NCBI GenBank assembly: GCA_032622095.1
Contig: CP136062.1
Coordinates: 229,598,578-229,662,577, forward strand
Source of the DNA: Siphonodentalium dalli
Lineage: Eukaryota > Mollusca > Scaphopoda > Gadilida > Siphonodentaliidae
Direction: 5' to 3'
Length of the DNA stretch: 64,000 nt
Each line of letters starts with the position of its first letter. The stretch's first letter is position 1. The translations under genes were made by a program, and so were the position numbers. Positions 8,110 through 48,143 of this stretch are shown one piece after another. The notes beneath the pieces are model-generated. The model was not told the origin of the DNA. It did no database searches and was given only the letters and a program-made list of their open reading frames with translations.

Positions 8110-8300
8110 CCTTTGAACATCTTATTTTTATACTGGGGTTTTTTTTTGTGTTGTAGGCGACTTCCATCTTATCTTTATATTGGTTTTTTTTTGTGTTGTA
8201 GGCGACTTCCATCTTATCTTTATATTGGTTTTTTTTTTGTATTGTAGGCGACTTCCAACTTATCTTTATACTGGTGTTTTTTTGTATTGTAGGCGACTTC
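8110..8300 (+). repeat. Tandem array of the exon 2 splice acceptor (4 copies)
   Basis: A unit of 45-46 bp holds a T-rich tract, a TTGTAG acceptor and the first bases of exon 2 (GCGACTTCCA). It is present four times, with AGs at 8155-8156, 8200-8201, 8246-8247 and 8291-8292. Only the last AG joins the full exon. Use of the third would add 15 codons ending in TAG, the stop being made by the next acceptor itself. Confidence 0.85.
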
Positions 8301-8361
8301 CAAACTTTTGGTGAATTACCCAGTGAAGCAGAGGAATGAGATTCTCGACTATCTGTTCAAG
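8293..8361 (+). CDS. GALC: GALC exon 2
   Basis: Twenty-three codons read ATSKLLVNYP then a short linker and EILDYLFK, which aligns directly to the family segment after the glycine motif (start of the TIM barrel). Phase 0 at both ends; donor is GTTTGT at 8362. The acceptor is the 3'-most of four tandem copies. The preceding ~1.6 kb and following ~0.8 kb carry the same MITE in opposite orientation. Confidence 0.9.
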
Positions 8362-8396
8362 GTTTGTAAAAAGTTACAATCAACAGCTGCTTTTTA

Positions 8397-8512
8397 CAGT
8401 AATGCCATAAATAATCGACTCCTTAACCACAGCAGAATTATGGGTAATTTTACCCATAATATTACCCATAATTCTGCTGTGGTTAAGGAGTCGATTATTT
8501 AGGGCATTACTG
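8397..8512. mobile_element. Family D palindromic MITE, TA target
   Basis: The arms start CAGTAATGCC and end GGGCATTACTG, and the inside is a near-perfect palindrome. TA flanks both ends (8395-8396, 8513-8514). The element starts only 35 bp downstream of the exon 2 donor. The CAG...CTG ends plus TA duplication suggest a pogo/Tc1-mariner-related non-autonomous element; this class assignment is inference. Confidence 0.7.
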
Positions 8513-8876
8513 TATGTCTTCACACCATAATAGTTACATAGTCCATCTGCGTTACAGTAATCCTTTTCGGTGATTGGTCATCTGGGTCACCCATGTTATA
8601 CCCCAATAACACAGAATGTAACATGAACACGACGTCACAAATTGTTGACCTAATCAGTAAGAGCAGTCAGCAGAATAATTGGGCGTGCTTTTCAAAGTTC
8701 TGGCGATTTGCATCTGAAGCCAGTTATTTATATCAATCACGTTATCATTGCTAAGTGCTTGGAAATAATATATTGGGCTGACTTAATGAGCTGCGTGGGC
8801 GAGTCTCAAATTCTTGGCAGATTTTGTGAAAATATATAAAAATACATTCAGCTTTTTATGGGAAGAAAAAAGCTGT
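8513..8876. other. Intron 2 sequence, nothing recognised
   Basis: No coding or repeat structure that I can support. Confidence 0.4.
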
Positions 8877-9325
8877 ATAAATATGTGACCCGCCATATCA
8901 AATCCAGTCGTAAGTCGGGATTTTTTTACCCTGTGCCAATGCATTCTCTTATATATGCGAGATATAAGAGAATGCATTGGCCTAACAATTTTTTATCATT
9001 TTTAATAATTTTTTCTTGTATTCTTTAACAATTTTATAATTTCACCCATACAGAGCCCCAGACAAACATGAGCAGACGACACTCTTCTATATGCTTATAT
9101 ATATGTGTGGAGCTCCATGTAGGTTAATGGATGTTTTTTATTTTATGTCCTAAAAATTGTAAGAAACATTTATTTAAAAAAAATGATAAAAAATTGTTAG
9201 GCCAATGCATTCTCTTATATATGCGAGGCGACCTATGGTCGACTCGCATATATAAGAGAATGCATTGGCACAGGGTAAAAAAAATCCCGACTTACGACTG
9301 GATTTGATATGGCGGGTCACATATA
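8877..9325. mobile_element. Nested MITE with ~55-bp inverted ends and two family B hairpins
   Basis: The outer ends GTGACCCGCCATATCAAATC and its reverse complement (ending 9322) enclose a family B hairpin at each side (8928-8985 and 9199-9275). The middle holds a reversed copy of the AGCCCCAGAC...TGTGTGGAGCT block. The left hairpin has a shortened loop. Confidence 0.65.
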
Positions 9326-9332
9326 ATAAATT

Positions 9333-9473
9333 AATCTAGTGGGTGTATGTGTGATTGGGGGATATGATGCTGTGGTCATTAGGGAACATTTATTGAGAAC
9401 CGCTTTGTGGTTCATACAATGTTATCAAACGACCATAGTGCCGTATCCCCCAATTTACGCACACCCACTTAGA
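9333..9473. mobile_element. Small foldback element
   Basis: AGTGGGTGTATGTGTGATTG at the left pairs with the reverse complement ending near 9473 (CAATTTACGCACACCCACTT), giving arms of about 43 bp around a short loop. A poly-G run of about 16 follows at 9482. Confidence 0.55.
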
Positions 9474-9610
9474 GATGTTCTGGGGGGGGGGGGGGGGTGC
9501 AAAGGTACCCCTATTAGCTCCCGGACTATATTCCCAACATTATTTGTTCAACTTTATAAGGTTCTCTGTCAAAACTTCAAAAAGTTACTAGGTTTTGTAC
9601 TGGTGAAATT

Positions 9611-9801
9611 CAGTAATGCCCTAAGTAATCGACCCCTTAACCACAGCATAATTATGGGCAACTTTTCAGGATTTAGTCGGAAATATGGCTTGTTGCGAGA
9701 GCTTTCCGATGAATGGCAACAAGCCATATTTCCGACTAAATCCTGAAAAGTTACCCATAATTCTGCTGTGGTTGAGGGGTCGATTACTTAGGGCATTACT
9801 G
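9611..9801. mobile_element. Family D palindromic MITE
   Basis: It starts CAGTAATGCCCTAAGTAATC and ends in the reverse complement. The arms share the segment TTTCAGGATTTAGTCGGAAA. A TA follows the right end; the left flank is TT, so the duplication is imperfect here. Confidence 0.7.
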
Positions 9802-10046
9802 TATAATATCTGCTGGTGTTGGCCAGAGTGGAGATTCATGGTATGATTGACCTCATCTCGTGCTTTCCCACCCCCCCCCAAACATGTTCTGTGTCGATCA
9901 TCACTTTGTGATGAATTGTATGTTCCATCTCTTTTGGGTAAAACAACATTGATTACATATCAACTTGAGGTGCCTGGAGGTCTAATATTCAAGAAGGTAA
10001 AATATTCTTGCCAAAAAGACAGTTTTGATAAATTGATATGTTCCTC

Positions 10047-10689
10047 GTTGTAAAATATAGAGATCCGGGGGGGCTGGGAACACCACAGAATACAAGGGTA
10101 AACCTGTCTTCGGTAACATGGACAAAGGTGATCATTATCTAGGTACACATTCCGAAGCGCCACTTGGACCATTCCATAGTCAGTAAAATTAAAAACAGGA
10201 GCATAATAGAGGTATGCCTGGTGTTTTGAAATTTGGAAAATATAGGTATACCTATGACAGAGTATGCGTACCAGTATCGTAGAATCACGCACTATCATAA
10301 ATGAACTAGTTATACGTAGAGTATTAAAATATTCTTTAGTTTCATGATTGTCCCATACCGGTAGTTTCAGTAAAAGATGGGAGCGTGGTACATAGTTAGG
10401 TGTTACAAATTTAGAAATTAGGAACGTAAGCATAGGCCGCGAGTTTTCGAAAGGGTTAATTTTGAAATTTATAGTTATGTACATGAGTAAGCAGTTGTAG
10501 AATGTAAGTGTAGGTGTAAGTCTGAAGTTTAATGCTAAATTTCACTGGAATCGTCGTCAGTTATGTACCTGGTGATGGAGTGTTTAAACAAACCATCGCT
10601 TTTCGACACTTTTAAAAAGTTACCGAAGACAGGTTTACTCTTGTATTCTGTGGTGTTCCCAGCCCCCCCGGATCTCTATATTTTACAAC
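10047..10689. mobile_element. TIR element with ~70-bp, nearly identical ends
   Basis: GTTGTAAAATATAGAGATCC and the next ~50 bases recur in reverse complement at the right end with about one mismatch. The element has split a 27-bp tandem repeat: one copy lies before it and about nine after it. An ORF on the minus strand covers most of the interior but resembles nothing I know. High arm identity suggests recent insertion. Confidence 0.7.
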
Positions 10690-10922
10690 ATAAATTGATA
10701 TGTTCCTCGATTTTGATAAATTGATATGTTCCTCGATTTTGATAAATTGATATGTTCCTCGATTTTGATAAATTGATATGTTCCTCGATTTTGATAAATT
10801 GATATGTTCCTCGATTTTGATAAATTGATATGTTCCTCGATTTTGATAAATTGATATGTTCCTCGATTTTGATAAATTGATATGTTCCTCGATTTTGATA
10901 AATTGATATGTTCCTCGATTTT
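10690..10922. repeat. 27-bp tandem array, ~9 copies, upstream of exon 3
   Basis: Nearly identical units of the form GATTTTGATAAATTGATATG plus TTCCTCG run to 56 bp before the exon 3 acceptor. One further unit lies at 10021-10046, on the other side of the inserted TIR element. There are no unique spacers, so it is not a CRISPR-like array. Confidence 0.85.
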
Positions 10923-10978
10923 CTAGGATAGAATTAGGATTATGTTATTCTAACTGTATAAAATTGTTTTCTTTTCAG

Positions 10979-11042
10979 CCAAACTTTGGAGCTTCTTTGC
11001 AAATTTTGAAAATTGAAATTGGAGGAGATGCACAAAGCACAG
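10979..11042 (+). CDS. GALC: GALC exon 3
   Basis: The exon reads [21 protein letters not shown], matching the conserved barrel strand PNFGASLHILKVEIGGDGQ of the human enzyme. Acceptor cttttcAG at 10977-10978; 64 bases give 21 codons plus one base, and the donor is GTAATA (phase 1). Confidence 0.92.
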
Positions 11043-12281
11043 GTAATACAGTTCCCCATCAAAACATCTATTTCTATATATTATATTTATACGGCAATAA
11101 TTCATCATAAATTTATGAATTTGACACATTTTGTAATTGTTTAAAGATGCATAATCCGAATTAACGCTCGCAAATTACTATTTCCTTGGCTTCGGGGGTA
11201 AACAAATATTTGATTCGAGGAACCCACCCATCAAAGCTCACTAACAATATAAAGCTTGTCTGCCTGCCATTCTCTCTAAGTCTCTTGTGTTTGAAATGAG
11301 ATCTTATCTTACTGACAGTATTTGATAAACAAATTACAGAAATGGCTGCTTAATGTTTATTAGTGTCTCATTTCAATTTAAAATTAGATTAATTCCCATG
11401 TGCAGTGTTCTATGCAGTTGTACAGACAGGTGTTACAGTATTATGTTTATATATATAAACTCCTTTTCATCTGTGATAATGATATGTCTTATTTATTATG
11501 CTGATGATTTCAAGTAACAATTATCACAGGTGCCATGTTGATAACCCTCCCCTTAATTTTGTAATTTATTTTAAGGCTAATGAACTCACTTCAACTTCTA
11601 TATTATATCATTTGGAATGACTATATCAATGGATCTCATACATGTAGGTTGTGATTTACATTTGGTTCAAATAGGGGCAGAGACAGGATATTTAACACTC
11701 TCACACCCACCCTATCTATGGTATGAATTCATGTTTGGTACTTGTATATAGATTCCTATATTACATGTATTAATTTTGATATATGCCAGTATTATCAGTA
11801 AGGTTTTGATAAATTTCCATCAGTTGGAGATCTTGAAGTACCAGTTGTAATTTAGTTTGGTCCAGTTGGGAGGTAATGGGCAATGATCTATTGGGGGGTC
11901 GGGGTCAGGTTTGCAGTTTTTCAAGGTGGGTATCCGCATATCCCCTCCCATTATTCAATGACGACCCTCAACCTAGAACTACTTGTTTAAAGTGATTTGA
12001 CAAATACTGATGATTGTAGTCTTCAGAGTCCCAGTCTTTACAGTCTGGTTAGCGACCCCACAGTAATTGACTGTCTTGTTCTGTCTGTTGTCTGATTTTA
12101 TGACCTGAACACCCCTTTAAATGGATAATAGGTCATTCAAATGTATACTTTTATAACTGAATGGAAGAATCCATTTAGTATAGGAAGGGTTACTCTGTAT
12201 GGGGTATATTCACAGATCATGGTTCACCTTTCATTGAAGTTTCGATTTTGTTATTTAGTTATTTATGAATTCCTGAACAAT
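11043..12281. other. Intron 3, first part
   Basis: Mostly unremarkable AT-rich intron. The segment at 11217-11240 (aggaacccacccatcaaagctca) repeats part of 7739-7761, so a scrap of a dispersed repeat is present. No coding content seen. Confidence 0.4.
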
Positions 12282-12348
12282 TTAACCCTTCCATGACTGG
12301 AGCTTCCTGAAATTTTGTGAAAACCCTGTGCCAATGCATTCTCTTATA

Positions 12349-13369
12349 CAGGGTTTCCGCTATGGGTTGGGGGAATGTGGCCGTATTTGGGAAGAACAAA
12401 TTTATGTTTATCACTGAAAAGTAGCCATTTCGTTGCTCTTGAGACAACAAGCAGGAACATTGAAGCTTCGTATAGAAACCAAATTAAAATAGATCGTCTT
12501 TCTTTGATCTCAAGTTAATGAACTAAAAGCATGTAAGCACCATGTGGGGCCTACAATGGATACAACCACTTTTATAACGGTAGCAATATTAAAAACCGAC
12601 ATCAAAGAAATTACTGGGGTTGGAAAGACACATTGTCACACTCAGTGTCAAGCGTACTCCAGCAGTAATAAATGTTACGTCAGAGCTCATGTCACGTGCT
12701 TTGCACACGTTCTGCTTTCTTTGTATTTTATACAGTACTGATCAAAACAAGTTGGTGTGAACTCAAAAGCCATTCCTCAGACAGAGATGACCACATACTG
12801 GATTCGTATAATGGAAAATGTCGCATTCATTGGATAGGGAATAAATACACTGATAATAACTATTAATATTTTATTTTTTTTTAGTTTTAATTAAACATTT
12901 CTTTGATATTGAGGTAAAAGGTCTGCACTGCTGGTCTCAGGGAATGCAAAAACTCACCTGTGTTCATGGTTGTAGCTCAGTATTCAGCCCCCCGTAATGA
13001 CTTAACAATGTATAGTGCGCATTTTGATGGGAAATAGTGGGTCAGAAAGTTGAGACTTATAGACAGAAATCTACGGTAAATTAAAGTGTGAGAGGCCGAT
13101 TTAATTACTACTAAACAATCGCCAACAAAGCTTTACCCAGGATGGTGCAGACAACTGTACACGTGGTCCGCGCTATTGATCATGTCTTATTCAGGCACCA
13201 ATTGTAGGATTCCTTACAATCTGTTAATCATCAGTGTCGGTGATCGCTCGTCCTGAGTAAAAAGGCGGCTGAGTTGGTCTGTGGCTATTTTGTGACAAAT
13301 GTTATGTCAAGGATGGGGAAGGGAATGAGGCCGCTGGACGGCCGGCCTGCCATAGTAGCGGAAACCCTA
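12349..13369. mobile_element. hAT-like non-autonomous element nested in a family B hairpin
   Basis: The left end CAGGGTTTCCGCTA and the right end TAGCGGAAACCCT are inverted. The host hairpin reads CTCTTATA before it and ATCTTATA after it, seven of eight bases matching. CAGGG-type ends with an 8-bp duplication are typical of hAT elements. I see no transposase ORF. Confidence 0.55.
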
Positions 13370-14608: not shown

Positions 14609-14846
14609 TACCTTGACCTTGTAAGTCAGTGCATTTTCTTATATTTGTGAGGCACCATATGGGAGACTGGGCTTGCCTCGCATGTATAAGAGAATATATT
14701 GTCAAAAAATATTTACCTTGACTTTGCAAGCCAGTACATTCTCTTATATATGCAAGGCTCCCTATGGAGACTCACATAATTATATAAGAGAATGCACTGG
14801 CACAGGATCTTATTGCTGCACCAGCGCAGCTCCCACCATGAAAGGG

Positions 14847-15218
14847 TTAAATAACACTCCCGTATGGAGCCTCACACAGACCCAAGCAGACAACAGTCAT
14901 CAGTGCATTGTTCTCTCTGTCTGGGGCTCCATAAAGGGTTAAATAACACTCCTGTATGGAGCCTCACACAGACCCAAGCAGACGACAGTCATCAGTGCAT
15001 TGTTCTCTCTGTCTGGGGCTCCATAAAGGGTTAAATAACACTCCCGTATGGAGCCTCACACAGACCCAAGCAGACGACAGTCATCAGTGCATTCTTCTCT
15101 CTGTCTGGGGCTCCATAAAGGGTTAAATAACACTCCCTTATGGAGCCTCACACAAAACCAAGCAGAAGACAGTCATCAGTGCATTGTTCTCTCCGTCTGG
15201 GGCTCCATAAAGGGTTAA
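14847..15218. repeat. TTAA-bounded 92-bp tandem array (4 units), upstream of exon 4
   Basis: Four units run from one TTAA to the next (TTAA at 14847, 14939, 15031, 15123 and 15215). Each begins ATAACACTCCCGTATGGAGC and ends GGGGCTCCATAAAGGG, so each has short inverted ends. The array stops 24 bp before the exon 4 acceptor. Confidence 0.85.
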
Positions 15219-15242
15219 ATCTTTTCTTTAATTCTTTTTTAG

Positions 15243-15331
15243 ATGGAACTGAAGCATCTCATATGCACGATCCATGGGATGAGAATTATCAGCGCGGATA
15301 CGAGTGGTGGCTGATGGTCGAAGCTAAAAAG
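15243..15331 (+). CDS. GALC: GALC exon 4
   Basis: The exon reads [20 protein letters not shown] then [10 protein letters not shown], matching human DGTEPSHMH...GYEWWLMKEAKK. This includes the Thr near residue 93-96 that lines the galactose pocket in the known structure. Acceptor ttttttAG at 15241-15242, entering in phase 1; donor GTTTGT at 15332, phase 0. The 3' half of the exon plus donor is repeated about ten times downstream. Confidence 0.93.
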
Positions 15332-17195
15332 GTTTGTATGATCCGTGGGGGGAGGGGGTGGTAATCCATGGGATGAGAATTATCAGCGCGGATACGAGTG
15401 GTGGCTGATTGTCGAAGCTAAAAAGGTTTGTATGATCCGTGGGGGAAGGGAGTTGTCCATGGGGGTGGTGACCCGTGAGATGGGAGTTATCAGTGCAGAT
15501 ATGAGTGGTGGCTGATGTTCAAAGCTAAAAAGGTTTGTATGATCCGTGGGGGGGAGGGGGTGGTGACCCGTGGGATGAGAATCATCAGCGCGGATACGAG
15601 TGGTGGCTGATGGTCAAAGCTAATAAGGTTTGTATGATCCTTGTTTGGAGGGAGTTGTCCATGGGGGTGATGACCCGTGGGATGAGAATCATCAGCGCGG
15701 ATACGAGTGGTGACTGATGGTCAAAGCTAAAAAGGTTTGTATGATCCGTGGGGGGAGGGGGTGGTAGAGCCCGAAGCCGCCATCGTACGCCGCCGCCGCC
15801 AGCCATATTGGCCACAAGCCGCCGCCACCCATATTATTTCTAACGCCAGCCACATTTAAAAATCTCCGCCGCCGGAATTGTAAAATGGCTGAGCCGTGTG
15901 CATGGGCTTATATCAAGCACAACTGTACTGTGAATCGCAAAGAACTAAACCGCATTGCCTAATATTGGCATACTCGCATGGACACGGCATGGTTGTTATA
16001 TTATCAGAACACCTGGCCCCTTAATGTGGAATAGACTATCCCAATGCATGCTTTCATATAACTGATTCATTCGGTATTGAAAGGGTTAAAATATAAATTC
16101 GGTTTATATCGACAACACCTTGTCTCAGACATCACTGGCATTTGTCAATATATACACATAAGAATAGAAAACATTTTGAAATATTATATATCATTACTAT
16201 CGGGTTCATCATTCAATGATGCATGCATATATCGTAAGATGGCAGTGATGATAGCAGTCTGAAGTCGACAGAAGTCCCAATGTAACTACTTATACCGATT
16301 AGATGGGAAACTACATACATGTACATGTATAGTATATCCATGCCAGTCCTTCGTAAATTTTCGCCATAATGGAAAAGCCTAACATCAAAAGATTACGTGT
16401 GATCTGGAATTCTACGGGTTCACCACAAACGCTAAAAAAAACGGCATCTATAACCGGTAACAGGGGATTAGGAACATTTCGGAAACGAAAATACGCTGAA
16501 TGATAACATCTCAGCCGGCTGAGCCGCCATATTTCGTCAGCCACGAACGTCGTGACTGAGCCGGCTTAGCTAGCTAACCAGCCACGAAAATCGGTTGAGC
16601 CAGCCATGAAAACTATTTGTCGTGGCTTCGGGGTCTAGGGGGTGGTGACGCATGGGATGAGAATCATCAGCATGGATACAAGTGGTGGCTGATGGTCAAA
16701 GCTAAAAAGGTTTCTATGATCCGTATGGGGAGGGGGTGGTGATCCATGGGATGAGAATTATCAGCGCGGATACGAGTGGTGGCTGATGGTAAAAGCTAAA
16801 AAGGTTTGTATGATCCGTATGGGGAGGGGGTGGTGATCCGTGGGACGAGAATCATCAGCGTGGATACAAGTGGTGGCTGATGGTAAAAGCTAAATAGGTT
16901 TGTATGATCCTTGTTTGGAGGGAGTTGTCCATGGGTGAGGTGACCCGTGAGATGGGAGTTATCAGTGCAGATATGAGTGGTGGCTGATGGTCGAAGCTAA
17001 AAAGGTTTGTATGATCCGTGGGGGAAGGGAGTTGTCCATGGGGGTGGTGACCCGTGAGATGGGAGTTATCAGTGCAGATATGAGTGGTGGCTGATGGTCG
17101 AAGCTAAAAAGGTTTGTATGATCAGTGGGATTGAGAATTATAAACAAGGATATGAGTTGTGGTTGGTGGTCGAAACTAAAAAGGTTTGGGGGGGA
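15332..17195 (+). repeat. Tandem array of exon 4 3'-half plus splice donor (~10 extra copies)
   Basis: Degenerate copies of the last ~60 bases of exon 4 followed by GGTTTGTATGATCC and a G-rich spacer recur about every 95-110 bp. GT donors fall at 15426, 15533, 15628, 15735, 16710, 16804, 16898, 17005, 17112 and 17184. A MITE splits the array between the fourth and fifth copies. None of the copies has a convincing acceptor. Reading past the true donor reaches TAA at about 15362. Confidence 0.88.
15767..16635. mobile_element. TA-flanked TIR element inside the exon 4 array
   Basis: The left end GAGCCCGAAGCCGCC and right end GGCTTCGGGGTC are inverted, with TA at 15765-15766 and 16636-16637. Both subterminal regions are rich in AGCCGCC/AGCCACGA motifs. 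It interrupts the array of exon 4 copies, so it inserted after the array formed. No convincing ORF. Confidence 0.5.
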
Positions 17196-18758: not shown

Positions 18759-18914
18759 ACAGTTAACCGATAAATGTAATTTAAATTGAATTCATAATGC
18801 ATACGTTTGTACAGTTAACCGATAAATGTAATTTAAATTGAATTCATAATGCATACGTTTGTACAGTTAACCGATAAATGTAATTTAAATTGAATTCATA
18901 ATGCATACGTTTGT
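18759..18914. repeat. 52-bp tandem repeat, 3 copies, ending at the exon 5 acceptor
   Basis: Three identical units beginning ACAGTTAACCGATAAATGTA follow each other, and the last ends eight bases before exon 5. The repeated unit therefore supplies the branch-point region but not the AG itself. Confidence 0.9.
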
Positions 18915-18922
18915 ACTTTCAG

Positions 18923-19087
18923 AGAAATCCAAATATCAGGTTATATGCTCTGCCTTGGGCGTTCCCCGGTTGGCTTGGTAACGGAACAAGAAATCCATTC
19001 ACTAATCCAAAGATGACGGCTGTATATGTTGTGAAATTTATCATTGGTGCTAAAACTCACTATAATCTTAATATGGATTACGTCGGG
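18923..19087 (+). CDS. GALC: GALC exon 5
   Basis: Fifty-five codons start RNPNIRLYALPWAFPGWLGN, matching human [20 protein letters not shown]. The Trp of LPW falls at residue 135, the same number as an active-site Trp in the mammalian enzyme. NGT after GWLG is an N-glycosylation sequon. The exon ends HYNLNMDYVG. Acceptor ctttcAG at 18921-18922, donor GTGAGA at 19088, phase 0 at both ends. Confidence 0.94.
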
Positions 19088-20707: not shown

Positions 20708-20746
20708 CTCTGGAATGAAAAGAATTATGATATAACTTACATCAAA
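20708..20746 (+). CDS. GALC: GALC exon 6: acid/base Glu182
   Basis: A 39-base exon reads LWNEKNYDITYIK and matches human IWNERSYNANYIK. The Glu of Trp-Asn-Glu is residue 182 in the assembled protein, the same number as the GH59 acid/base catalyst. Acceptor tttcAG at 20706-20707 and a strong donor GTAAGT at 20747; phase 0 at both ends. Too short to be found as an ORF. Confidence 0.94.
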
Positions 20747-26687: not shown

Positions 26688-26815
26688 ACTTTGAGGCAGA
26701 CACTGGATGCATACAATTTACAGCACGTTCAGGTCGTAGCTGCGGATAATCATTGGGATATCGCTAAAGACATGCTAAAAGATGTAGCGTTAGCAAAAGC
26801 AGTTGGCATTATTGG
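26688..26815 (+). CDS. GALC: GALC exon 7
   Basis: The exon reads TLRQTLDAYNLQHVQVVAAD, NHWDIAKDMLKD and LAKAVGIIG, matching human [23 protein letters not shown]...VVDVIG. This is the barrel segment between the two catalytic Glu residues. Acceptor cttacAG at 26686-26687; 128 bases leave phase 2; donor GTTAGT. Confidence 0.93.
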
Positions 26816-29269: not shown

Positions 29270-29387
29270 TGCACATTACCCCGGTACACTGACGACAACT
29301 GATGCAATTAAAACTGGTAAACAGCTGTGGGCATCTGAGGATTATAGCACATTTAATGATAATGTTGGAGCCGGCTGTTGGGCTAGG
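29270..29387 (+). CDS. GALC: GALC exon 8: nucleophile Glu257
   Basis: The exon reads [20 protein letters not shown] then [19 protein letters not shown], matching human AHYPGTHSAKD...[21 protein letters not shown]. The Glu of Ala-Ser-Glu is residue 257 and equals the catalytic nucleophile (Glu258 in mammals). Acceptor tttgcAG at 29268-29269 in phase 2; donor GTTAGT at 29388 in phase 0. Confidence 0.95.
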
Positions 29388-30007: not shown

Positions 30008-30045
30008 ATTTTGAATCAGAATTACGTAACTGGATACATGACAAG
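30008..30045 (+). CDS. GALC: GALC exon 9
   Basis: A 38-base exon reads ILNQNYVTGYMT plus two bases of the next codon, matching human ILNQNYINGYMTS. Acceptor ctttacAG at 30006-30007, phase 0; donor GTGAGT at 30046, phase 2. Confidence 0.93.
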
Positions 30046-33206: not shown

Positions 33207-36200
33207 TTATTCATTGCTTATGAGGCGAAGCTCATCGCGTGCGGAAAATAATTTTCGGATTATATGACATATTGAAGTGCATGAATTTGAAATATTGTTG
33301 GATAGGATTTTGACAAGCTGTTCAGTTTGTGTCATGTTTTCAAAGTCTGGGAACTGTGTCTTCATAAGAGTTATTAGTTCGAGCCGCGGTGTGCGGTAAG
33401 CACTACATTCCAAAAGAAAGTGTTTTTCATCTTCAATAGCATCATCGGAACAAAATATACATAGTCTTTGTTCCAATGCCGTCGGTGGTTGGGTGTGGCG
33501 TCCCTTTTCAATAGCCAGTTTATGATTACTTATACGCAGTCTAGTAAAAACGATTCTATTTTCTATTGATGGTGTGTGAAGAAGATAAGGTTCTATTTCG
33601 TACTTAAGTTTGAAAAGTCGGTATGTTCGTAATTTATTACTTCCCGTTTTTGAGCATTCATCAGTGAGACTCTGTCTGAAATATATATAATAATCTTCAA
33701 TAAGATTTCTTTTGAATTGACTCAGAACTGGACCCGGATTGTTTAGGTCTGCAATATTCCACCCCAGTGATTCTGCCGTTTTGAAGATTGATTTCTTAAC
33801 CGATGCCACTTGTTGTTCCAACGCAGCATTACGGAGCAGATTACAGTCCGACCGTGAAATTATCTTAATTACATAAGATGAAAGTCTGCATGCCACGTCA
33901 ATAAATAATGGATGGCTCCCTAACTCGGCGCGAACAGCGTTGTTCGAAGAAAATCTGCCGACTCCGAGTAACCGCTTACAATATTTTATGTGTACCTTCT
34001 CACATGGAAGGCGGTCGTGATTTTTAGTGGTTATTTCCACACCCCATATTTCGCTACCATATAACAATATTGGCTTAATTAATCTATCGAAGAGTTTTAC
34101 AGAAGTCACTAGTGGAATCGGTGCGTCGTTTGTACATGCGTTAAATAAAGAATGCATTGCTTTGAGTCCTTTAGCACTCAATTCTTCCATTGCATGTGAG
34201 AATCTACCCGTATTACTAAATTTAATTCCAAGATAATTGTATTCATTAACAATTTCCAACTTTTGATTTCCAATGTGAAAGTCTGGTAAAGTTTTTGTTT
34301 TCCTACTTCTAAACACCACACATTTAGTTTTATCAGTGTTCACGGTGAGTTTATTGTTCTCAGTGTATCTATTTAGTCTGTTTAGACTGCACTGTAGCCC
34401 ACTTGGAGTATCAGAAAGTAAAACCAGGTCGTCAGCGAATAAAATGTGATTAAGTGTATCATTGCCTAAATGGACAGCCTCGCAAGGACTGTCAAACTCT
34501 TTTTTAATGTCGTCAATAAAGATTTTGAACAGGTTTGGGGACAATATGCATCCCTGCCTAACACCTATCGTGGATAAGCATGGAGGCCCCAACCCTTTGT
34601 TTGTTTTGGTGATATAGTAGCTATTGTCATATAGTGACTGTATTATCCGTAGTATGAGTCCCTTAATGCCCGCGCATTTTAATTTTTTAAAAAGTAATTG
34701 TCTGTTTACTGTATCGAACGCTTTTCTGAAATCTATGAATGCAGCATATAGGGGCTTTCCCAATCGTTTGTATTTTTGAATGGCCGCGTGCAGAACAAAT
34801 GCTCCATCAATGGTGCTCTTCCCTTTCGAAAAACCAAATTGGTTTTCGCTGATAATATTGTTTACATGTAAGAAATCGATTAACCGACGATTAATTATTT
34901 TGTTAAACAATTTACCGACCGCCGATGATATTGCTATTGCCCTGTAGTTATTGGGATCACTTTTGTCTCCTTTTTTGTGAATTAAAGTGAGGGTAGATTC
35001 GCTCCAATCACTCGGATAATGTCCTGTCTCCAGAATTAAGTTAAACAATTTTACAATTTCATCAATTATCAATGGAACGAGTGACTTCAGCAATTCGTTC
35101 GAAATTTGGTCGGGTCCAATCGCCTTTCCGTTTTTTAGTTCTCTTGTAGCGCCAAGAACTTCCTCTGTCGTGATATCATCATTATTGATAGCTTGATTAC
35201 AAGTTTGATATGTGTCCGAAGATAATCCACAATCTGGATTATCAGGTTTCGGACAATAAAGCTCAGTGAAAAAATCAACTGATCGATCAGCATCAAGTTC
35301 ATTTTGTGAGAGCGGTCTCTGCCGCATTTTTGTTATGATTTCCCAATATTGTTTTGGGTTGGTTGTTTCTAAAGTATCTAGTTTACAATATATATCTGCG
35401 TAGAATGCTCGTCGTTTAGCCTTCAGCGCCTTTTTGTACGCTTTTCGTTTCACATGGTATCGCGTTCTTAGGTTTGGGTCAAATGGGTTATTCCTCATAT
35501 CATTAATGATTTTTCCGAGATCGCGCTTAAATTCCCTACATTGTCCGTCAAACCATTTTCTTTTACGCGGAGTTTTCTTCCTATTAACTACCCTTCGTAC
35601 ACATGCGTACATGTTTACGTCTTTTACTATTTGCATAAGGTCTTTGGTCGCATTTTTGGCACCATAAACATCATGCTGATAGTGATACGTTTTATAATCA
35701 GCTAAGCGTCCGCGAATGGACGTATTATGCATGGCGTTGCGTAATTTCTCCTCACTATGCTCTGCCCATTTAAGATGTGTTCTAAGTTGGGTATATTTAT
35801 ATTTGTTTTGTGATTGGCATCGTTCATTGTCATATTTTAAGTGAAGAACTAATTGACAATGGTCAGAGAATTCAGTTGGAAGTTTAACACAAAAGTAATC
35901 AACCGCGCAAAGAAAACTCTCTGTTATAAGGATATAATCAACGACGCTCGCCCCATTATATTGATAGCTTGTGAAATGACCAAGTCTATCGCCTGTAGAT
36001 CGTCCATTAATTACACGAATACCACAACTTCGGCTGAGATTTATGAGCTGGCGACCAAAAGAGTTTATACGACTATCCATACTGGCTCTATTGGGGCACG
36101 TGTCAATTATGTAATCAGCTGGGAGTGGCGTGTGCTTATCACTGTCAGATACCACGTGGTCTGGCAATTCACCTGTGCGTGCATTGAAATCCCCGCCGAG

Positions 36201-36668
36201 AATTAATAGTTCACCGCTCTTGTATCGAGCTAAAGCCTTCTCGACACATTCAAATATATCATCGTCTTTATCTTTCGTCTTCCAAAAACTAGAATTGCTG
36301 GGCGGAATATACAATGACACAAATATTACTTTTGTGGATTGGTTAAGCATTTGACCATCGAACTCGACACATAGTGCTACCTCGTTTACAGTGTAGACTT
36401 TTCGCATGTACTTTTTGAATTTTGAGAGAAAATAAAAGGCTATACCACCCTTTTTCTTGGCCTGGGAACGACTTAAATTTAGATTTTCATACCCTTCTAA
36501 ATGAATATCTGGTGAATCTTGATGCCACGTTTCTACCAGAGTAATAAACTCATATCTCTCTATTTGGTTTCTAAAATCTGGATCTCTTATTTTTTTACGG
36601 ATCCCTTGCACATTCCAGCTTGTATATCGGATTGTATTACTGTGATCTGTTGAACTAGTGTCAGACAT
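33207..36668 (-). CDS. LINE APE endonuclease - reverse transcriptase ORF
   Basis: An uninterrupted 1153-codon ORF. The N-terminal ~280 residues are an AP-type endonuclease: SWNVQGI near residue 18, LVETWHQ near 42, LGGDFNAR near 160, VVDYILI near 243, and FSDHCQLVL near 267. A basic linker follows. The reverse transcriptase lies roughly at 510-790, with FIDFRKAFDTVN, GVRQGCILSPNLF and the catalytic FADDLVLL. Near residue 1080-1100 a CxxC...H...C motif (CIFCSDDAIEDEKHFLLEC) forms the usual C-terminal knuckle. No RNase H was seen. All catalytic motifs look intact. I cannot assign the clade firmly. Confidence 0.88.
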   Translation of the reverse strand: MSDTSSTDHSNTIRYTSWNVQGIRKKIRDPDFRNQIERYEFITLVETWHQDSPDIHLEGYENLNLSRSQAKKKGGIAFYFLSKFKKYMRKVYTVNEVALCVEFDGQMLNQSTKVIFVSLYIPPSNSSFWKTKDKDDDIFECVEKALARYKSGELLILGGDFNARTGELPDHVVSDSDKHTPLPADYIIDTCPNRASMDSRINSFGRQLINLSRSCGIRVINGRSTGDRLGHFTSYQYNGASVVDYILITESFLCAVDYFCVKLPTEFSDHCQLVLHLKYDNERCQSQNKYKYTQLRTHLKWAEHSEEKLRNAMHNTSIRGRLADYKTYHYQHDVYGAKNATKDLMQIVKDVNMYACVRRVVNRKKTPRKRKWFDGQCREFKRDLGKIINDMRNNPFDPNLRTRYHVKRKAYKKALKAKRRAFYADIYCKLDTLETTNPKQYWEIITKMRQRPLSQNELDADRSVDFFTELYCPKPDNPDCGLSSDTYQTCNQAINNDDITTEEVLGATRELKNGKAIGPDQISNELLKSLVPLIIDEIVKLFNLILETGHYPSDWSESTLTLIHKKGDKSDPNNYRAIAISSAVGKLFNKIINRRLIDFLHVNNIISENQFGFSKGKSTIDGAFVLHAAIQKYKRLGKPLYAAFIDFRKAFDTVNRQLLFKKLKCAGIKGLILRIIQSLYDNSYYITKTNKGLGPPCLSTIGVRQGCILSPNLFKIFIDDIKKEFDSPCEAVHLGNDTLNHILFADDLVLLSDTPSGLQCSLNRLNRYTENNKLTVNTDKTKCVVFRSRKTKTLPDFHIGNQKLEIVNEYNYLGIKFSNTGRFSHAMEELSAKGLKAMHSLFNACTNDAPIPLVTSVKLFDRLIKPILLYGSEIWGVEITTKNHDRLPCEKVHIKYCKRLLGVGRFSSNNAVRAELGSHPLFIDVACRLSSYVIKIISRSDCNLLRNAALEQQVASVKKSIFKTAESLGWNIADLNNPGPVLSQFKRNLIEDYYIYFRQSLTDECSKTGSNKLRTYRLFKLKYEIEPYLLHTPSIENRIVFTRLRISNHKLAIEKGRHTQPPTALEQRLCIFCSDDAIEDEKHFLLECSAYRTPRLELITLMKTQFPDFENMTQTEQLVKILSNNISNSCTSICHIIRKLFSARDELRLISNE

Positions 36669-37262
36669 TATTTCAGTGTACTAGCCATGGAGCTGGTAAG
36701 ATTTCCTATTCTCCCTACAATTGTACAATTTACCTAAATCAAACATTTGAAGTATACGTATATAATGCGTTCATACTAATAAAATTTAACAACAATACTA
36801 AAAAACAAAGAGTATACCATTATAGTGCTTCATCGTGCATGGCAACAGCATAATCTACAGAGGGACACATTTTACTTAAGGAATATTTTGAAATCATACA
36901 GAAATGAAAGTTACTTATCCACTGGGCGAAATGCTTTTGTTTGCTTTCATAACACATATTGTTTACACTGATGGCCTGTTATTGTATCCACATTGGTTCG
37001 TATGAAGATCGTTATAGATGATTTGATAACAAGCTGGTGGTCATCATTTAATTGATACATGGTGCTAACAAGTGAGATTATGGTAGATAATTACCAACAA
37101 TGCGTTCATTGTCGGTACATAAAAACGTGCCGACTTAAAGGGTCGATGTCGGATGTTAAACAAGTAATTAAAACGTTATTCAATTTGTATACAAGTGCGA
37201 TGAAACCAAAGTCCATCTTACTGGAGATTAAGCTGTGCCATGCCTACAAAAACCACATGGAA

Positions 37263-38100: not shown

Positions 38101-38300
38101 TTTTTTTGTCTCTTACAGCACGATATCATTGAATCTGATAGCCCGATATTATTCAGCGCTCCTGTATTATGATTTCTCTGTCTATTACAGCTGAATATGG
38201 AATCTGATAGCCCGATTTTATTCAGCGCTCCCGTATTATGATTTCTCTGTCTATTACAGCACAATATCATGGAATCTGATAGCGAGTTACTATTCCGCAC
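38101..38300 (+). repeat. Tandem array of the exon 10 splice acceptor (3 copies)
   Basis: Units of 69-72 bp hold a TTTCTCTGTCTATTACAG acceptor and the first ~45 bases of exon 10. AGs are at 38117-38118, 38189-38190 and 38258-38259. In the second copy a short deletion puts TGA straight after the acceptor, and reading from the first copy runs into the same TGA. Confidence 0.88.
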
Positions 38301-38384
38301 TCCCGTATGCTCGAGATGGATTAATGACTGCAGCTGAGCCATGGAGTGGGAATTATGTTGTCGAATCTCCCATCTGGATAACTG
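38260..38384 (+). CDS. GALC: GALC exon 10
   Basis: The exon reads [41 protein letters not shown], matching human [41 protein letters not shown]. It forms the last barrel part. The true acceptor is the 3'-most of three; entry phase 2, donor GTCAGT at 38385, phase 1. The human Cys in this segment (Gly-Arg-Cys-Gly) is Asp here. Confidence 0.94.
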
Positions 38385-39471: not shown

Positions 39472-39611
39472 CGCACACTACCCAGTTCACAGACATCGGC
39501 TGGAAATATTTATCGTCGGATCACGGTGTCGTCAAACTTCTCCACGGAGGCAGTATGGTTACTCTGGGCAGCCCAAATAAAAAAGATATCGCCATCATCA
39601 TAGAAACCATG
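39472..39611 (+). CDS. GALC: GALC exon 11
   Basis: The exon reads [39 protein letters not shown] and IAIIIETM, matching human [29 protein letters not shown]...LTIIIETM. Start of the beta-sandwich domain. Acceptor tccttgcAG at 39470-39471, phase 1 in; donor GTAACA at 39612, phase 0. Confidence 0.94.
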
Positions 39612-39820
39612 GTAACAAATCTATGATAACTCCTCCCATGGTTAGCCCAGATAAAATAGATATCAAATTCACCATTGTAACCATGGTAAAGTTTTTTATT
39701 AGAATAAAAAAGATATTATATCATCACGATAGAAACCATGATATCTGTGACAACTCCTCAAGCAGTCAGTCTGGAAAAGAAATAATATTACCATCGTCAT
39801 ATAAACCATGGTATAGTATT
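39612..39820 (+). repeat. Degenerate tandem copies of exon 11 3' end plus donor
   Basis: The last ~45 bases of exon 11 (AATAAAAAAGATATCGCC...GAAACCATG) recur about three times after the true donor, with ACCATGGTAA at 39681-39690, ACCATGATATC near 39736 and ACCATGGTATAG near 39806. Two keep a GT at the expected place. The units are more diverged than those of exons 2, 10 and 14. Read-through from exon 11 reaches TGA within 18 bases. Confidence 0.7.
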
Positions 39821-42016: not shown

Positions 42017-42106
42017 TCTCATGACCATTCAAAGTGTATACGGCCGTACTTACCAGAATACTCTGTTAAACCACAGAACATCACCATAAGGCTCGGTGGA
42101 TCCTTC
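42017..42106 (+). CDS. GALC: GALC exon 12
   Basis: Thirty codons read SHDHSKCIRPYLPEYSVKPQ and NITIRLGGSF. The Ile-Arg-Pro Arg (residue 383) equals the substrate-contacting Arg380 of mammals. NIT is a glycosylation sequon close to a human one. Acceptor tttcAG, donor GTAAGT, phase 0 at both ends. Confidence 0.94.
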
Positions 42107-43472: not shown

Positions 43473-43576
43473 TGGTTGAGCATCAATGTTAAAGTGTGAT
43501 TTATGAAAATGGTTAATGTTCTAATCAATGTACATTCAGACAAAGGTTAATAGACAATGTGCATATCTTTTCTTTA

Positions 43577-44106
43577 TTATACCCCCCGCAACGAAGTTGG
43601 GGGGGGGGGGGGGGGGTATACTAGAATCAGCTTGTCCGTCCGTCCGTCTAACCATCCATGGACACAAATTTGTCCGGAGTTTTTCTGTCGTTTCATGATC
43701 ATTTTCCGGGAACCTGTGCACTGCGAGTATGATGGAGTTATTATGGTGGAGTTATTCCCCCTTTTTCGACTTAGAAATTTTTCGCAACATGTATAATTTT
43801 GTCCGAGCTTTTATTCCTACATTTTAATATAAATTTTTTTTAAACTGTGCACCTGTTATTATGAAGTCTGTCCGACATTTTTTGGTGGAGTTATCCTCCT
43901 TTTTCGATTTAGAAATGTTTTTGCAATATGCATAATTTTGTCCGAGCTTTTAGTCCTACATTTTTCGGTCAATAGGTTTAAGATTAGGGTTAGGGTTGTG
44001 CACCTGCAATGGGAACTGTTATTTTATCATTTTAACTAAATGTTTACTGACATGTGAAACATCTTAGTATTTTAAAAACACATTGGGAGAGTCACACCTC
44101 TAGTTC
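43577..44106. repeat. Second copy of the G-run / GTCCGTCC repeat
   Basis: Same order of segments as 25985-26410, with an extra duplication of the gttattcccccttttttcgac part. A G-run of about 18 lies near 43599. Confidence 0.6.
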
Positions 44107-44133
44107 ATTCAGACTGCATCGACATAAGGAATT

Positions 44134-44588
44134 TAAAGGCCCATTTAATTTTCGAATCACCAATTTTTTATAGTGACTTGATATACAGTTTTAATAACAA
44201 TCTTATGACATAAAATATGATTAAATTACTATAATTCATCACCATTTGGAACGTCTGTGTCTCAGAAGATGACCAAATAGTAATAGAAAATAGCTGAAAT
44301 CATAGAAAGATTTTCCCCATTTCGCTCCCAGATTGCAACAGAATACAAACTAAGAAATAGAGTTATTCCCCTTCCATTGAAAATAATAGACTTTGCAGTA
44401 CAGTCCAGATGGAACTTAAGCACAGAAAACATGTCGGTACCTCAGCAAAAACACATGTTCTCAGTTTATTACACCGGATAAGTTAATAATACAATGTTTT
44501 GGAGCTTCCTCTTTAAAATGGTATATAATATGGCATATATTTTATATAATGTGATCTGGGGTTTCAAAAATTAAGTGGGCCTTTAAAT
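44134..44588. mobile_element. Family S MITE ending just before exon 13
   Basis: TTTAAAGGCCCATTTAATTT at the left and AAAATTAAGTGGGCCTTTAAA at the right are inverted ends. It stops 17 bp before exon 13, so its right edge abuts the polypyrimidine tract. Related copies: 59393-59838 and part at 61296-61514. Confidence 0.7.
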
Positions 44589-44605
44589 TGATTTTTCATT
44601 TTCAG

Positions 44606-44695
44606 GCTAAGATTTCATCGCTTAATATTTGGTACAGCAAACTTGGCTTCAAAGGAACAAAAACAACAATGTTAAAGAAATTAACTCCCGTTAAA
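44606..44695 (+). CDS. GALC: GALC exon 13
   Basis: Thirty codons read AKISSLNIWYSKLGFKGTKT and TMLKKLTPVK, matching human [26 protein letters not shown]. Beta-sandwich domain. Acceptor atttttcattttcAG, donor GTGAGT, phase 0 at both ends. Confidence 0.92.
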
Positions 44696-44715
44696 GTGAG
44701 TAGTACATGTACAGT

Positions 44716-45427
44716 CAATCCTTCCATGATTAGAGCTTCCTGAATTTTTCGCAAACCCTGTGCCCATGCATTCTCTTATATATGCGAGTCTCCCATATAT
44801 ATGAGAGAATGCACTGGCTCGGGATCTTTAATGTAGGCTAATTCAATTTGATGCGATTCGGAATCTTTCATCTGATTCGATTCGATTTGAAATCGGCTGT
44901 CCTGATTTGAATTGTATCGAATCATTGGCACCAGTTGCATTGTCATTACTTCAACGGATCACATTGCTTTTTCGCAAAGATATATCATGATGCCAGCGCA
45001 TATAAATAACATTGCCGTTGACTCAGCTATACTATAGACCACCGAAGCATTGTAAGACTTGTGCAACTGATCTAGCAAAATTTCTATATATGTCAAACTT
45101 GTGAACGCGATTGCTGTCTGGCTTCAATATTATTGCTTCTGATAATGTTTCATTGTCATATAACAGAGACAATTTCCACAAAGATAGCGCACTTGCAAAT
45201 GATAAGACTTGCCTTTGATTCATTAATACATAATATTTATTTACATCGTATACTGATGGTCATTTATCGTCGTTATGAAGTGAGCAAATTGATATTCGTC
45301 ATGTATTATCTTCATCATCACTATTATTATGCCTGATTGAATTATTTGATTCGAGATTCGATGCGATTCGGAATCAGTTGGGCCCTACTTTAATGGTGAA
45401 CCAGCACACCTCCCGTCATGAAAGGGT
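44716..45427. mobile_element. Family B2 remnant interrupted by an ATTCGATTCG-rich element
   Basis: The B2 left end (CCTTCCATGATTAGAGCTTC) and right end (ccgtcatgaaagggttaa) are split near 44833-45388 by a segment whose ends carry GATGCGATTCGGAATC in the same region on both sides. A related scrap lies at 45650-45748. Confidence 0.45.
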
Positions 45428-45473
45428 TAATCACATAGCCTCGATGCAAGAGAAATTTATTGTAATAAGCGGA

Positions 45474-46395
45474 TATGTTTATGTCGGGATTCAGATATTT
45501 GGCCCATTTTGTGTGTACATTTTATTTACGATTTGATCACATCTTCCGTCGTCAATGCATCAATCATTGAATATTGCTGTTGCTTTATTTGTTTTCTACT
45601 TTTTTCTTTTTTAAGACACCAAAACTATCTTTGTAATTGGCAGAATGTGGTCTGATTCGATTCGAGATTTGATTAAAAATGAAAATGTCCGATTCGCAGG
45701 GCTCTACTTTAATTCTGAACCAGCACACCTCCCATCATGAAAGGGTTAATGACATAGCCTATATACAATAAGCGGGTATGTTTATGTCGGGATGTCCAAA
45801 ATTGAAATCGAATGGTGGCACAAGGACTGGATCGGTCGCTAGGTATTTAGTTTTAAATATACGAAGGGATGATGATTCTTTGATTTTCTTTGACATGGTG
45901 TTCCATTCCCTAGTTGTATTTGATAAAATGTGTGTTCAAAATGCTCAGTTCTTTTGAACGAATATAGAGGAAAACTTGTTTTATCTCTAAAATCATATCT
46001 AGCATCAGATTCGGGGCGGGAGGGTAAGAGATTGTGAAGGTATTTAGGGGTCGCATTATTAGATATTTTCTACATGGTATTCATTCTATGGGATTTCTTT
46101 CTGTTTGGTAAAGTCTGCAGCCGCAATTCTATGAGCATTTTAGGGACGGATCGACTGAGACCTGTAATAGTTCGACCCGCATCGGGTTCATGGTATATAA
46201 TATGGCATATATTTTGTATAATGTGATTTGGGGGTTCAATGGTATATAATATTGTATGTTTATGTCGGGATGCTGATATTTGGCCCATTTTGTGTGTACA
46301 TTTTATTTACGATTTGATCACATCTTCCGTTGTCAATGCATCAATCATTGAATATTGCTGTTGCTTTATTTATATTCCTACTTTTTCTTTTTTAA
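45474..46395. repeat. Local duplication holding a TTAA empty site
   Basis: The segment 45474-45650 (atgtttatgtcgggattcag ... ttttttaagacaccaaaac) recurs at 46256-46392 and continues after the MITE at 46666. The first copy lacks the MITE and so gives its pre-insertion sequence at 45610-45615. The stretch between, 45750-46255, shows nothing else. Confidence 0.7.
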
Positions 46396-46665
46396 CCCTT
46401 TGAGTGCCAGGTCCGATTTTTGTATCAACCCATATACCCTGTGCCAATGCATTCTCATATATATGCGAGTCGACCATAGGTCGCCTCGCATATATAAGAG
46501 AATGCATTGGCCTAACAATTTTTCATCAATTGTTATTATTTTTTACAATTTTTTACAATTTTAATAATTTTTTAAAAATCTAAAAAAAAAAAAAAAAACA
46601 AATTAGGGACGATTTTACAGACCGTAAATTAGGGCTGATGAGATCGGCCCCTGGCACTGAAAGGG
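46396..46665. mobile_element. TTAA-flanked MITE (CCCTTTGAGTGCCAGG ends), with empty site
   Basis: CCCTTTGAGTGCCAGG at the left and CCTGGCACTGAAAGGG at the right, with TTAA at 46392-46395 and 46666-46669. It contains one family B hairpin (46436-46515). Related copies: 55711-55996 and 60598-60834. Confidence 0.8.
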
Positions 46666-46692
46666 TTAAGACACCAAAACTATCTTTGTAAT

Positions 46693-46930
46693 TGGCAGAA
46701 TGAGGTCCCCAGAGGGTGAATTTAATTACACTATCCCACACAGCAGACCTCTTGGGACCACATTCTGCTTAGTCCTCAACTGCTATGGGAGACCTGGTAT
46801 CAAATTGAAGTTCTCCAGTTGAAGTTGGTGATGCTCATCAATTAGTTACCTTGATTATGCATTGTATCTTTTGCATATTAGGGGATGTAGAAACTTAACA
46901 GAAGGGAAAAAGTAACTAAAAACAGTTTTA
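46693..46930. mobile_element. Family C copy, partial
   Basis: GCAGAATGAGGTCCCCAGAG and a damaged second arm, followed by the core segment (gttggtgatgctcatc...aacagaaggg). Confidence 0.5.
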
Positions 46931-47029
46931 AAAAATTTGATGTTTTTTTTATATAATTTAAATTTTTCAAATAAACATCCAATGAAGAACAATTTTAATA
47001 ATATTTAAATTCTGTTGCTCTCTCTTTAA

Positions 47030-47408
47030 CCCTTTACCCAACAGAAGGGCCCTGTGCCAATGCATTCTCTTATATATGCGAGTCGACCATAGGTCGCCTC
47101 GCATATATAAGAGAATGCATTGGCTTAACACATTAAAAATTATAATTGTTAAAGAATGTAAGAAAAAATGGTAAAAAAAGATTTTTTTTAGGCCAATGCA
47201 TTCTCTTATATATGCGAGGCGACCTATGGTCGACTCGTATATATAAGAGAATGCATTAGCACAGGGCTAACTGTAACTATCACAATGTGGTCAAGGAGCC
47301 GGTTCCAATGATATCCATATGTGTATGGTTCTATTGAGACATACCGAAGATATTTTAGGCTTATGAAGCTTTATTTGGCCGGTTTTGGCCGGTTTGTTGG
47401 GTAAAGGG
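47030..47408. mobile_element. Family B1 composite MITE, TTAA on both sides
   Basis: CCCTTTACCCAACAGAAGGG at the left, two opposed hairpins, the tatccatatgtgtatggttc block and TTGTTGGGTAAAGGG at the right. TTAA at 47026-47029 and 47409-47412. Confidence 0.75.
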
Positions 47409-47412
47409 TTAA

Positions 47413-47618
47413 CCCATCAGTGCTAAGTCCGATTTTTGTATCAACCCATATTTCCTTGATCATTTTTCGAATTTATTGATTATAATAATGTGACACATTG
47501 ATGGAAAGATCTCTAAGAGCTCTTTCCATCAATGTATCACATTATTATAATCAATAAATTTGAAAAATGATCAAGGAAATATGGGTTGATACAAAAATCG
47601 GACTTGGCACCGAAAGGG
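47413..47618. mobile_element. Foldback MITE sharing a TTAA with its neighbour
   Basis: A long palindrome (arms about 95 bp) with CCCATCAGTGCTAAGTCCG and GGACTTGGCACCGAAAGGG ends. It lies between TTAA 47409-47412 and 47619-47622, so the first TTAA is shared with the B1 element to its left. Confidence 0.7.
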
Positions 47619-47689
47619 TTAACTCCACTTTTTTCCAGCTGGCTCACTACTGTCTTATGTACAAGGAACACTCACATTCTCTCGTTTTT

Positions 47690-48020
47690 TTATGACTTCG
47701 CTGTTTATTTTATACTTGAAATTTCACTGTTTTATAGGTAACAAATGGCCAGTTTTTATGATTTCGCCATTTATTTTATACTTGAAGTTTGACTGTTTTA
47801 TAGGTAACAAATGGCCAGTTTTTATGATTTCGTCATTTATTTTATACTTGAAGTTTGACTGTTTCATAGGTAACAAATGGCCAGTTTTTATGATTTCGCC
47901 ATTTATTTTATACTTGAAGTTTGACTGTTTTATAGGTAACAAATGGCCAGTTTTTATGATTTCACCATTTATTTTATACTTGAAGTTTCACTGTTTTATA
48001 GGTAACAAATGGCCAGTTTT
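47690..48020 (+). repeat. 66-bp tandem array of the exon 14 splice acceptor (5 copies)
   Basis: Five units hold an ACTGTTTTATAG acceptor and the first 19 bases of exon 14 (GTAACAAATGGCCAGTTTT). AGs lie at 47736, 47802, 47868, 47934 and 48000. The first four read GTAACAAATGGCCAGTTTTT then ATGA, which gives TGA after seven codons in the exon 14 frame. Only the last copy continues into the full exon. Confidence 0.92.
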
Positions 48021-48143
48021 CACTAGACCTTGCTCTTGATGAGGTTTACACACTGACAACAACAAATCGTGGCAATAAAGGCGACTACGGAACTCCGCCA
48101 GCATCGGCTCCATTCCCACTTCCCTATAAGGATAATTTTGAAG
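48002..48143 (+). CDS. GALC: GALC exon 14
   Basis: The exon reads VTNGQFSLDLALDEVYTLTT, TNRGNKGDYGTPPASAP and FPLPYKDNFE, matching human [44 protein letters not shown]. End of the beta-sandwich and linker to the lectin domain. Acceptor is the last of five; donor GTATGT at 48144, phase 1. Confidence 0.94.

Follow-up and report, generated by a model that had tools for sequence, protein, structure and literature searches.

Splice junctions inside tandem arrays of themselves in galactocerebrosidase paralogues and an NSD-type gene of the scaphopod Siphonodentalium dalli

In the genome of the scaphopod mollusc Siphonodentalium dalli (2.23 Gb, 9 contigs), we find splice junctions that lie inside tandem arrays of themselves. 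We analysed a window of 64,000 nucleotides (contig CP136062.1, here C2, positions 229598578-229662577) whose + strand encodes galactocerebrosidase (GALC, GH59), hereafter GALC1, together with a tandem paralogue, GALC2, located ~77 kb downstream of GALC1, and an NSD-type methyltransferase gene further downstream of GALC2. The arrays at these junctions are minisatellites whose units come from splice junctions, a type of repeat known in amphioxus as 'mirages'. The stretches that we read are rich in local tandem arrays, two unrelated gene families show recurrent duplication of segments straddling an exon edge, and the two GALC paralogues are unequal in which arrays they carry, in copy number and in decay. 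On balance, we consider it somewhat probable that they reflect pervasive local duplication that is tolerated at junctions, with the spare copies drifting.

Five GALC1 junctions (acceptors at exons 2, 10 and 14, donors at exons 4 and 11) sit within such arrays on the + strand, as an earlier reading of the window (the sequence-only reading) had claimed. At exon 2 (8293..8361), a 45 bp unit is present in 4 copies (8118..8302) and extends 10 nt into the exon; at exon 10 (38260..38384), 3 copies of a 69-72 bp unit (38107..38308) extend 49 nt into the exon; and at exon 14 (48002..48143), 5.1 copies of a 66 bp unit (47687..48020) extend 19 nt into it. The scored copies of this last array (47687-48020) read AG followed directly by GTA, with a donor-like GT abutting the acceptor, and use of an outer exon 14 copy could in principle be corrected by recursive splicing. 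The donor array of exon 4 (15243..15331) begins 57 nt inside the exon and comprises 11 aligned copies at a spacing of 94-107 bp in two blocks 870 bases apart, with copies 1-5 at 15275..15766 and copies 6-11 at 16637..17186 (end approximate; Tandem Repeats Finder (TRF) ended the array at 17129, and copy 11 was added by eye). The donor array of exon 11 (39472..39611) is degenerate, with about 4 copies at 39567..39815 (limits by eye) that are 56-63% alike and escaped TRF as well as the 28-of-40 window test described below. Further arrays on the + strand adjoin exons 3, 4 (5' side), 5 and 14 (3' side), likewise confirming that reading, at offsets of -57, -23, -7 and +20 bp. These comprise 9 copies of 26 bp (10690..10922) ending 57 bp upstream of exon 3 (10979..11042), 4.2 copies of 92 bp (14836..15220) ending 23 bp upstream of exon 4, 3 copies of 52 bp (18759..18916; 6.2 copies in GALC2) ending 7 bp upstream of exon 5 (18923..19087), and 2.7 copies of 41 bp (48163..48273) starting 20 bp past the exon 14 donor. 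Compared by eye, the repeat units of the different GALC1 junction arrays are unrelated, again as claimed.

The strength of the spare splice sites was scored with a matrix built from the GALC1 and GALC2 junctions, in which some exon 15 and 17 ends were misplaced; since the matrix was made from these genes' own junctions, the scores are not independent. In GALC1, all three spare acceptors of exon 2 (14.0-14.9 vs 13.9 for the inner site) and both of exon 10 (14.5-14.7 vs 14.9) score like the inner site, and the spare donors of exon 4 reach 9.8, the inner value, in 7 of 9 cases, the others scoring 8.5 and 4.8. Lower values occur among the spare acceptors of exon 14 (3.7-9.9 vs 10.1), and the extra sites of exon 11 span 0.1-6.8 (inner site 5.6). 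The outer sites of exons 2, 10 and 4 thus mostly equal the inner ones, and therefore position must decide; homology points to use of the inner copy at each junction. According to the sequence-only reading, moreover, each extra copy checked runs into a stop. This stands for the window, where stops were found at all 22 GALC1 sites tested (a set that includes 39640, which is not among the four exon 11 copies in the alignment, and 39740, which has no GT, and excludes the exon 4 copy at 16709), but it fails elsewhere. In GALC2, 8 of 13 extra sites lead to a stop and five are open, namely four donors of exon 11 at 72 nt intervals and one acceptor of exon 10, and in the NSD-type gene a stop follows at 4 of 5 extra sites tested, the second donor of exon d, at +33 nt, being open.

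GALC2 carries five junction arrays, at exons 2, 4, 8, 10 and 11, and a single exon 14 junction. Its exon 8 acceptor array (98 bp x 4, 97% identity) is without counterpart in GALC1, where the acceptor of exon 8 (29270..29387) is single, and its exon 11 donor array consists of 5 units of 72 bp at 95% identity. Copy numbers are unequal between the paralogues in the single haplotype available (GALC1/GALC2: exon 2, 4/3; exon 4, 11/3; exon 10, 3/4; exon 11, about 4/5). Where copies could be paired, GALC1-GALC2 identity at exon 2 is 98% for the working copy and 96 and 83% for spare copies, and at exon 4 it is 90% and 78%, respectively. Three of the four GALC2 copies at exon 10 have a clear GALC1 partner (working copy 97%, spare copies 89 and 90%); at exon 11, the degeneracy of the GALC1 copies prevents pairing with those of GALC2. 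Intron blocks are 86.6 and 88.2% identical near exon 2 and 79.7-97.6% across the gene. Taken together, the paired and unpaired arrays and their identities point to mixed array ages and greater divergence of spare copies: on this evidence some arrays are older than the GALC duplication and others are probably younger, and in the pairs compared the spare copies diverge more than the working copies. Apart from the junction arrays, GALC2 intron 17 holds a satellite of 96 units of 79 bp (8.4 kb).

The NSD-type gene, recognized by its PWWP pieces and by tblastn with part of an approximate human NSD2 sequence as query, was picked because it was the next gene found and not for its arrays. Local copies, defined as at least 28 of 40 bases matching a 40-base window within 600 bp (or 200 bp), occur at 6 of its 28 junctions within 600 bp and at 4 within 200 bp. 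Clear cases are the acceptors of exon j (74 bp x 2.5) and exon h (54 bp x 1.9) and the donors of exon d (33 bp x 2.1, 100% identity) and exon c. The weakest is the exon c acceptor, whose copy lies 361 bp off and which is itself outside the NSD2 match. The gene also shows a coding tandem repeat inside exon b (96 bp x 2.9), a 17 bp array 12 bp past the exon b donor whose printed units, inspected by eye, start GTGAGT, and an intronic satellite of 157 units of 53 bp (8.3 kb). A Pfam scan of ten open reading frames (ORFs) matched three, two of them PWWP pieces and one SRCR; within ~900 bp of the SRCR ORF, which enters none of the counts, no array of period ≥20 was found.

Whether such junctions exceed chance was assessed in GALC1 (36 junctions), GALC2 (34), the NSD-type gene (28) and six random 10 kb regions, the latter picked for spread over contigs from 20 random draws on contigs C1, C2, C3, C7 and C8 (C4, C5, C6 and C9 were outside the draw). 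In the window test GALC2 exon 18 was placed 6 bases late, and in the TRF tests the exon 15 and 17 ends are approximate, and the misplaced ends lie more than 100 bp from any array. Background is high, at 0.43 arrays per kb (period ≥20) and 19.6% coverage in the six random regions, where 323 of 1500 windows have a local copy. Junctions with a local copy number 4/36 in GALC1, 5/34 in GALC2 and 6/28 in the NSD-type gene. The pooled 15/98 compares with 3262/11460 windows placed at random in introns of the same regions (28%) at 600 bp, a deficit (odds ratio 0.45, P 0.003) that arises because the genome is full of arrays; at 200 bp the counts are 13/98 and 2773/11470. Long satellites influence these raw rates. 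Circular shifts of the TRF arrays likewise gave no excess of arrays touching junctions (4 vs 3.45 expected, P 0.47; 5 vs 4.57, P 0.51).

A long array contributes many positions but represents one ancestral unit. Therefore, we also weighted positions by their copies, each junction counting once. With arrays collapsed in this way, 13.3-15.3% of junctions have a copy compared to 3.8-7.6% of intron more than 250 bp away and 6.9-9.3% at 21-250 bp, an excess of ~1.6- to 3.5-fold (the intron ranges depend on the search and counting radius); random regions stand at 4.6% and exon interiors at 5.5%. Pooled P values are 0.00008-0.0073 against far intron and 0.014-0.037 against near intron; for the NSD-type gene alone they are 0.005-0.057 and 0.024-0.15, and for GALC1 alone 0.045-0.29 and 0.23-0.43. 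When shared GALC junctions are counted once and the NSD exon at 79354-79427 is left out, 12 of 62 junctions have copies (P 0.00005 for a background rate of 5% and 0.0055 for one of 8.5%); in this count the exon 17 ends are displaced by 3 bases in GALC1 and by 12-19 in GALC2. Under a one-unit null for the TRF arrays of GALC1 and GALC2, 9 of 67 touch a junction vs 3.24 expected (P 0.005), and 18 have a junction no more than 60 bp away vs 7.5 expected (P 0.0004). Among the arrays of at least 95% identity, 3 of 19 touch a junction vs 0.71 expected (P 0.03) and 10 of 19 lie within 60 bp vs 1.9; at identities of at least 97%, the GALC1 and GALC2 arrays show no significant excess, 1 of 11 touching a junction (P 0.37). 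Restricting the analysis to arrays with both flanks alignable between the paralogues, which drops 58 of 67, leaves 7 of 9 within 60 bp vs 2.2 (P 0.0015). These P values overstate the case because the paralogues share arrays and the thresholds, including that of 95%, were chosen after looking. The answer thus depends on the null: junctions are not enriched by raw overlap and are moderately enriched if arrays are collapsed.

Tolerance of junction duplications, one of the explanations offered by the sequence-only reading, fits these data. Where splice sites are duplicated, proximity and exonic context govern the competition between them. A duplication spanning a junction would be nearly neutral because, beside the exon body, one copy retains exon and splice site intact. 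Through exon definition, the two closest sites across the short exon would be paired, and the outer copies, often equally strong in sequence, would mostly be skipped, stay intronic and drift; a modest added tendency of arrays to arise or persist near exons may contribute. Several points weigh against this account. Tolerance of random duplications alone leaves the collapsed junction excess (13.3-15.3% vs 3.8-9.3% of intron) unexplained, and spare copies need not be silent, given that a spare donor one unit downstream is sometimes used in human ABCA7 (PMC5954066). That spare copies drift as intron does is a claim about few copies, because one exon 2 spare copy is 96% alike and intron blocks range over 79.7-97.6%. 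The sample comprises three genes, two of them paralogues, splicing is deduced from DNA sequence alone, and the score matrix was trained on the junctions of the same genes, a few of whose exon 15 and exon 17 ends had been set wrongly.

Either a bias in duplication or survivorship may underlie the excess near exons, and the data do not separate the two. Under survivorship, sequence near exons would be shielded from transposon insertion and deletion and would hence be older and have accumulated more arrays. This reading, plausible but in our view doubtful, agrees with the gentle gradient in the collapsed rate (6.9-9.3% at 21-250 bp vs 3.8-7.6% further off) and with the many paralogue-alignable blocks that surround exons, but the excess is also seen among high-identity, and so probably recent, arrays and in alignable sequence (9 arrays). 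Those same observations (10/19 arrays of at least 95% identity within 60 bp vs 1.9 expected; 7/9 in alignable flanks, P 0.0015) favour a tandem-duplication process that is itself biased to exon edges, for instance via splice-site DNA or co-transcriptional structures, as do the one-unit excess (9/67 touching and 18/67 within 60 bp of junctions) and the NSD-type gene alone (6/28, P 0.005-0.041). The bias to exon edges proposed from the sequence finds no support in raw counts (15/98 vs 28%, a deficit), where circular shifts also lack an excess, and some in collapsed counts (13.3-15.3% vs 3.8-9.3%). The fact that only 1/11 arrays of at least 97% identity touches a junction (P 0.37) speaks against it, the 200 bp limit weakens the NSD-type result (4/28, P 0.02-0.15), GALC1 alone gives 4/36 (P 0.045-0.43), and the thresholds were picked post hoc with arrays common to the paralogues. 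An edge-biased process is thus possible but unproven, and we regard it as rather unlikely.

Explanations that assign the spare copies a function fare less well. As regulatory decoys, they would titrate splicing factors or send transcripts into decay, a proposal of the sequence-only reading that gains no support here. Stops at 22/22 GALC1, 8/13 GALC2 and 4/5 NSD extra sites, many of which score like real sites, would suit such a role, but stops are expected by chance in intron, extra sites in GALC2 and the NSD-type gene are open, arrays differ or are absent between paralogues, and spare copies diverge more than working copies in the pairs compared. We consider a decoy role very unlikely; in its favour, a spare donor of human ABCA7 is used at times, retaining one unit and leading to a stop and decay (PMC5954066). 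Alternatively, in-frame junction arrays could yield a protein of variable length through splice-site choice. All four extra donors of GALC2 exon 11, 72 nt apart, are in frame and open; one of three extra acceptors of GALC2 exon 10 is open, as is the second donor of NSD exon d (+33 nt); however, one open unit makes its copies open and the GALC inserts would land in a conserved enzyme, which leaves this reading highly improbable. Tandem arrays are prone to misassembly, yet the paralogues hold paired but diverged copies, the arrays recur at unrelated loci and substitutions distinguish copies within an array, so that an assembly artefact is scarcely credible.

The identity of the host gene rests on a Pfam match to PF02057 (1.2e-123) and on the match of the exon 4-10 stretch to the PDB chains 4ccc and 3zr5, named galactocerebrosidase (2e-97). 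Exons were located by tblastn with an approximate human GALC sequence as query, and junctions and phases were then rebuilt from the sequence. Molluscs are the top named relatives, at a maximum of 67% identity among the best 120 of 3521 protein matches at E ≤0.001 (8000 candidates scored). The remaining + strand exons are exon 1 (312..458, from the start codon), 6 (20708..20746), 7 (26688..26815), 9 (30008..30045), 12 (42017..42106), 13 (44606..44695), 16 (59943..60112) and 17 (61096..61169), with exon 18 beyond the window end. Exon 15 is present on the + strand as three alternatives, 15a (53738..53912), 15b (56048..56225) and 15c (57458..57632, ends set by eye), which are divergent variants with identical phases and are probably mutually exclusive exons. 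Two Pomacea isoforms differ solely in the exon 15 stretch. In GALC2 only a 15a-like exon 15 was found, and ~5 kb of GALC1 carrying 15b and 15c are without a collinear partner there. Intron 9 holds, on the - strand at window positions 33207-36680, a long open ORF of the long interspersed nuclear element (LINE) type with endonuclease and reverse transcriptase domains. An Rfam scan of the window gave no match at gathering scores.

In amphioxus, 'mirages' were described in Adh3 and the globins BflGb6 and BflGb9, and reverse transcription PCR suggested regular splicing there (PMC3087553); TnC was also named a mirage and PGBD5 was likened to mirages (PMC3902484). As in amphioxus, tandem units span the exon-intron boundary at acceptors and donors, both kinds being present here (acceptors of exons 2, 8, 10 and 14 and donors of exons 4 and 11 across GALC1 and GALC2), AG/GT is kept in many spare copies, and copy number varies. 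Units measure 10-160 bp in amphioxus mirages and about 33-115 bp here. Our case differs in its mollusc host, in involving several junctions per gene, in that background array density was estimated, and in that splicing is predicted from DNA. In human ABCA7, a variable number tandem repeat in intron 18 has a 25 bp unit, and the donor GT of exon 18 lies in its first copy; besides the occasional retention of one unit noted above, exon 19 skipping rises with array length (PMC5954066). Every unit there repeats a donor, as here; in contrast, that array starts at the donor GT at one junction, no exonic part is described in the available text, and both polymorphism and splicing effects were measured. 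Among duplicated human genes, tandem repeats located at exon-intron boundaries were tied to possible new introns (PMC2812944), which shows, as here, that minisatellites can sit at the exon-intron boundary of recent paralogues; those variable internal repeats mostly involve exon changes and putative novel introns, and none is claimed here. The same holds for intron gain by tandem genomic duplication (PMC4974935, PMC2891723), in which the duplicated segment likewise carries splice signals; the exon 14 unit copies carry AG followed by GT. Among the matches listed in the open-licence literature, we found no mollusc mirage.

In conclusion, the GALC junction arrays are a real feature of a kind already published, found here in a mollusc genome at several junctions per gene. 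A recurrent duplication aimed at exon edges and coupled to transcription or splicing, with a sizeable share of all junctions lying in mirages, would amount to a genome-wide cis-competition experiment, a prospect we think unlikely. Should junction arrays prove as frequent across the genome as in the three genes studied, they would supply many natural near-identical duplicates of splice sites, and thereby a test of the choice between equal sites, as well as raw material for intron gain, and mirages would not be peculiar to amphioxus.

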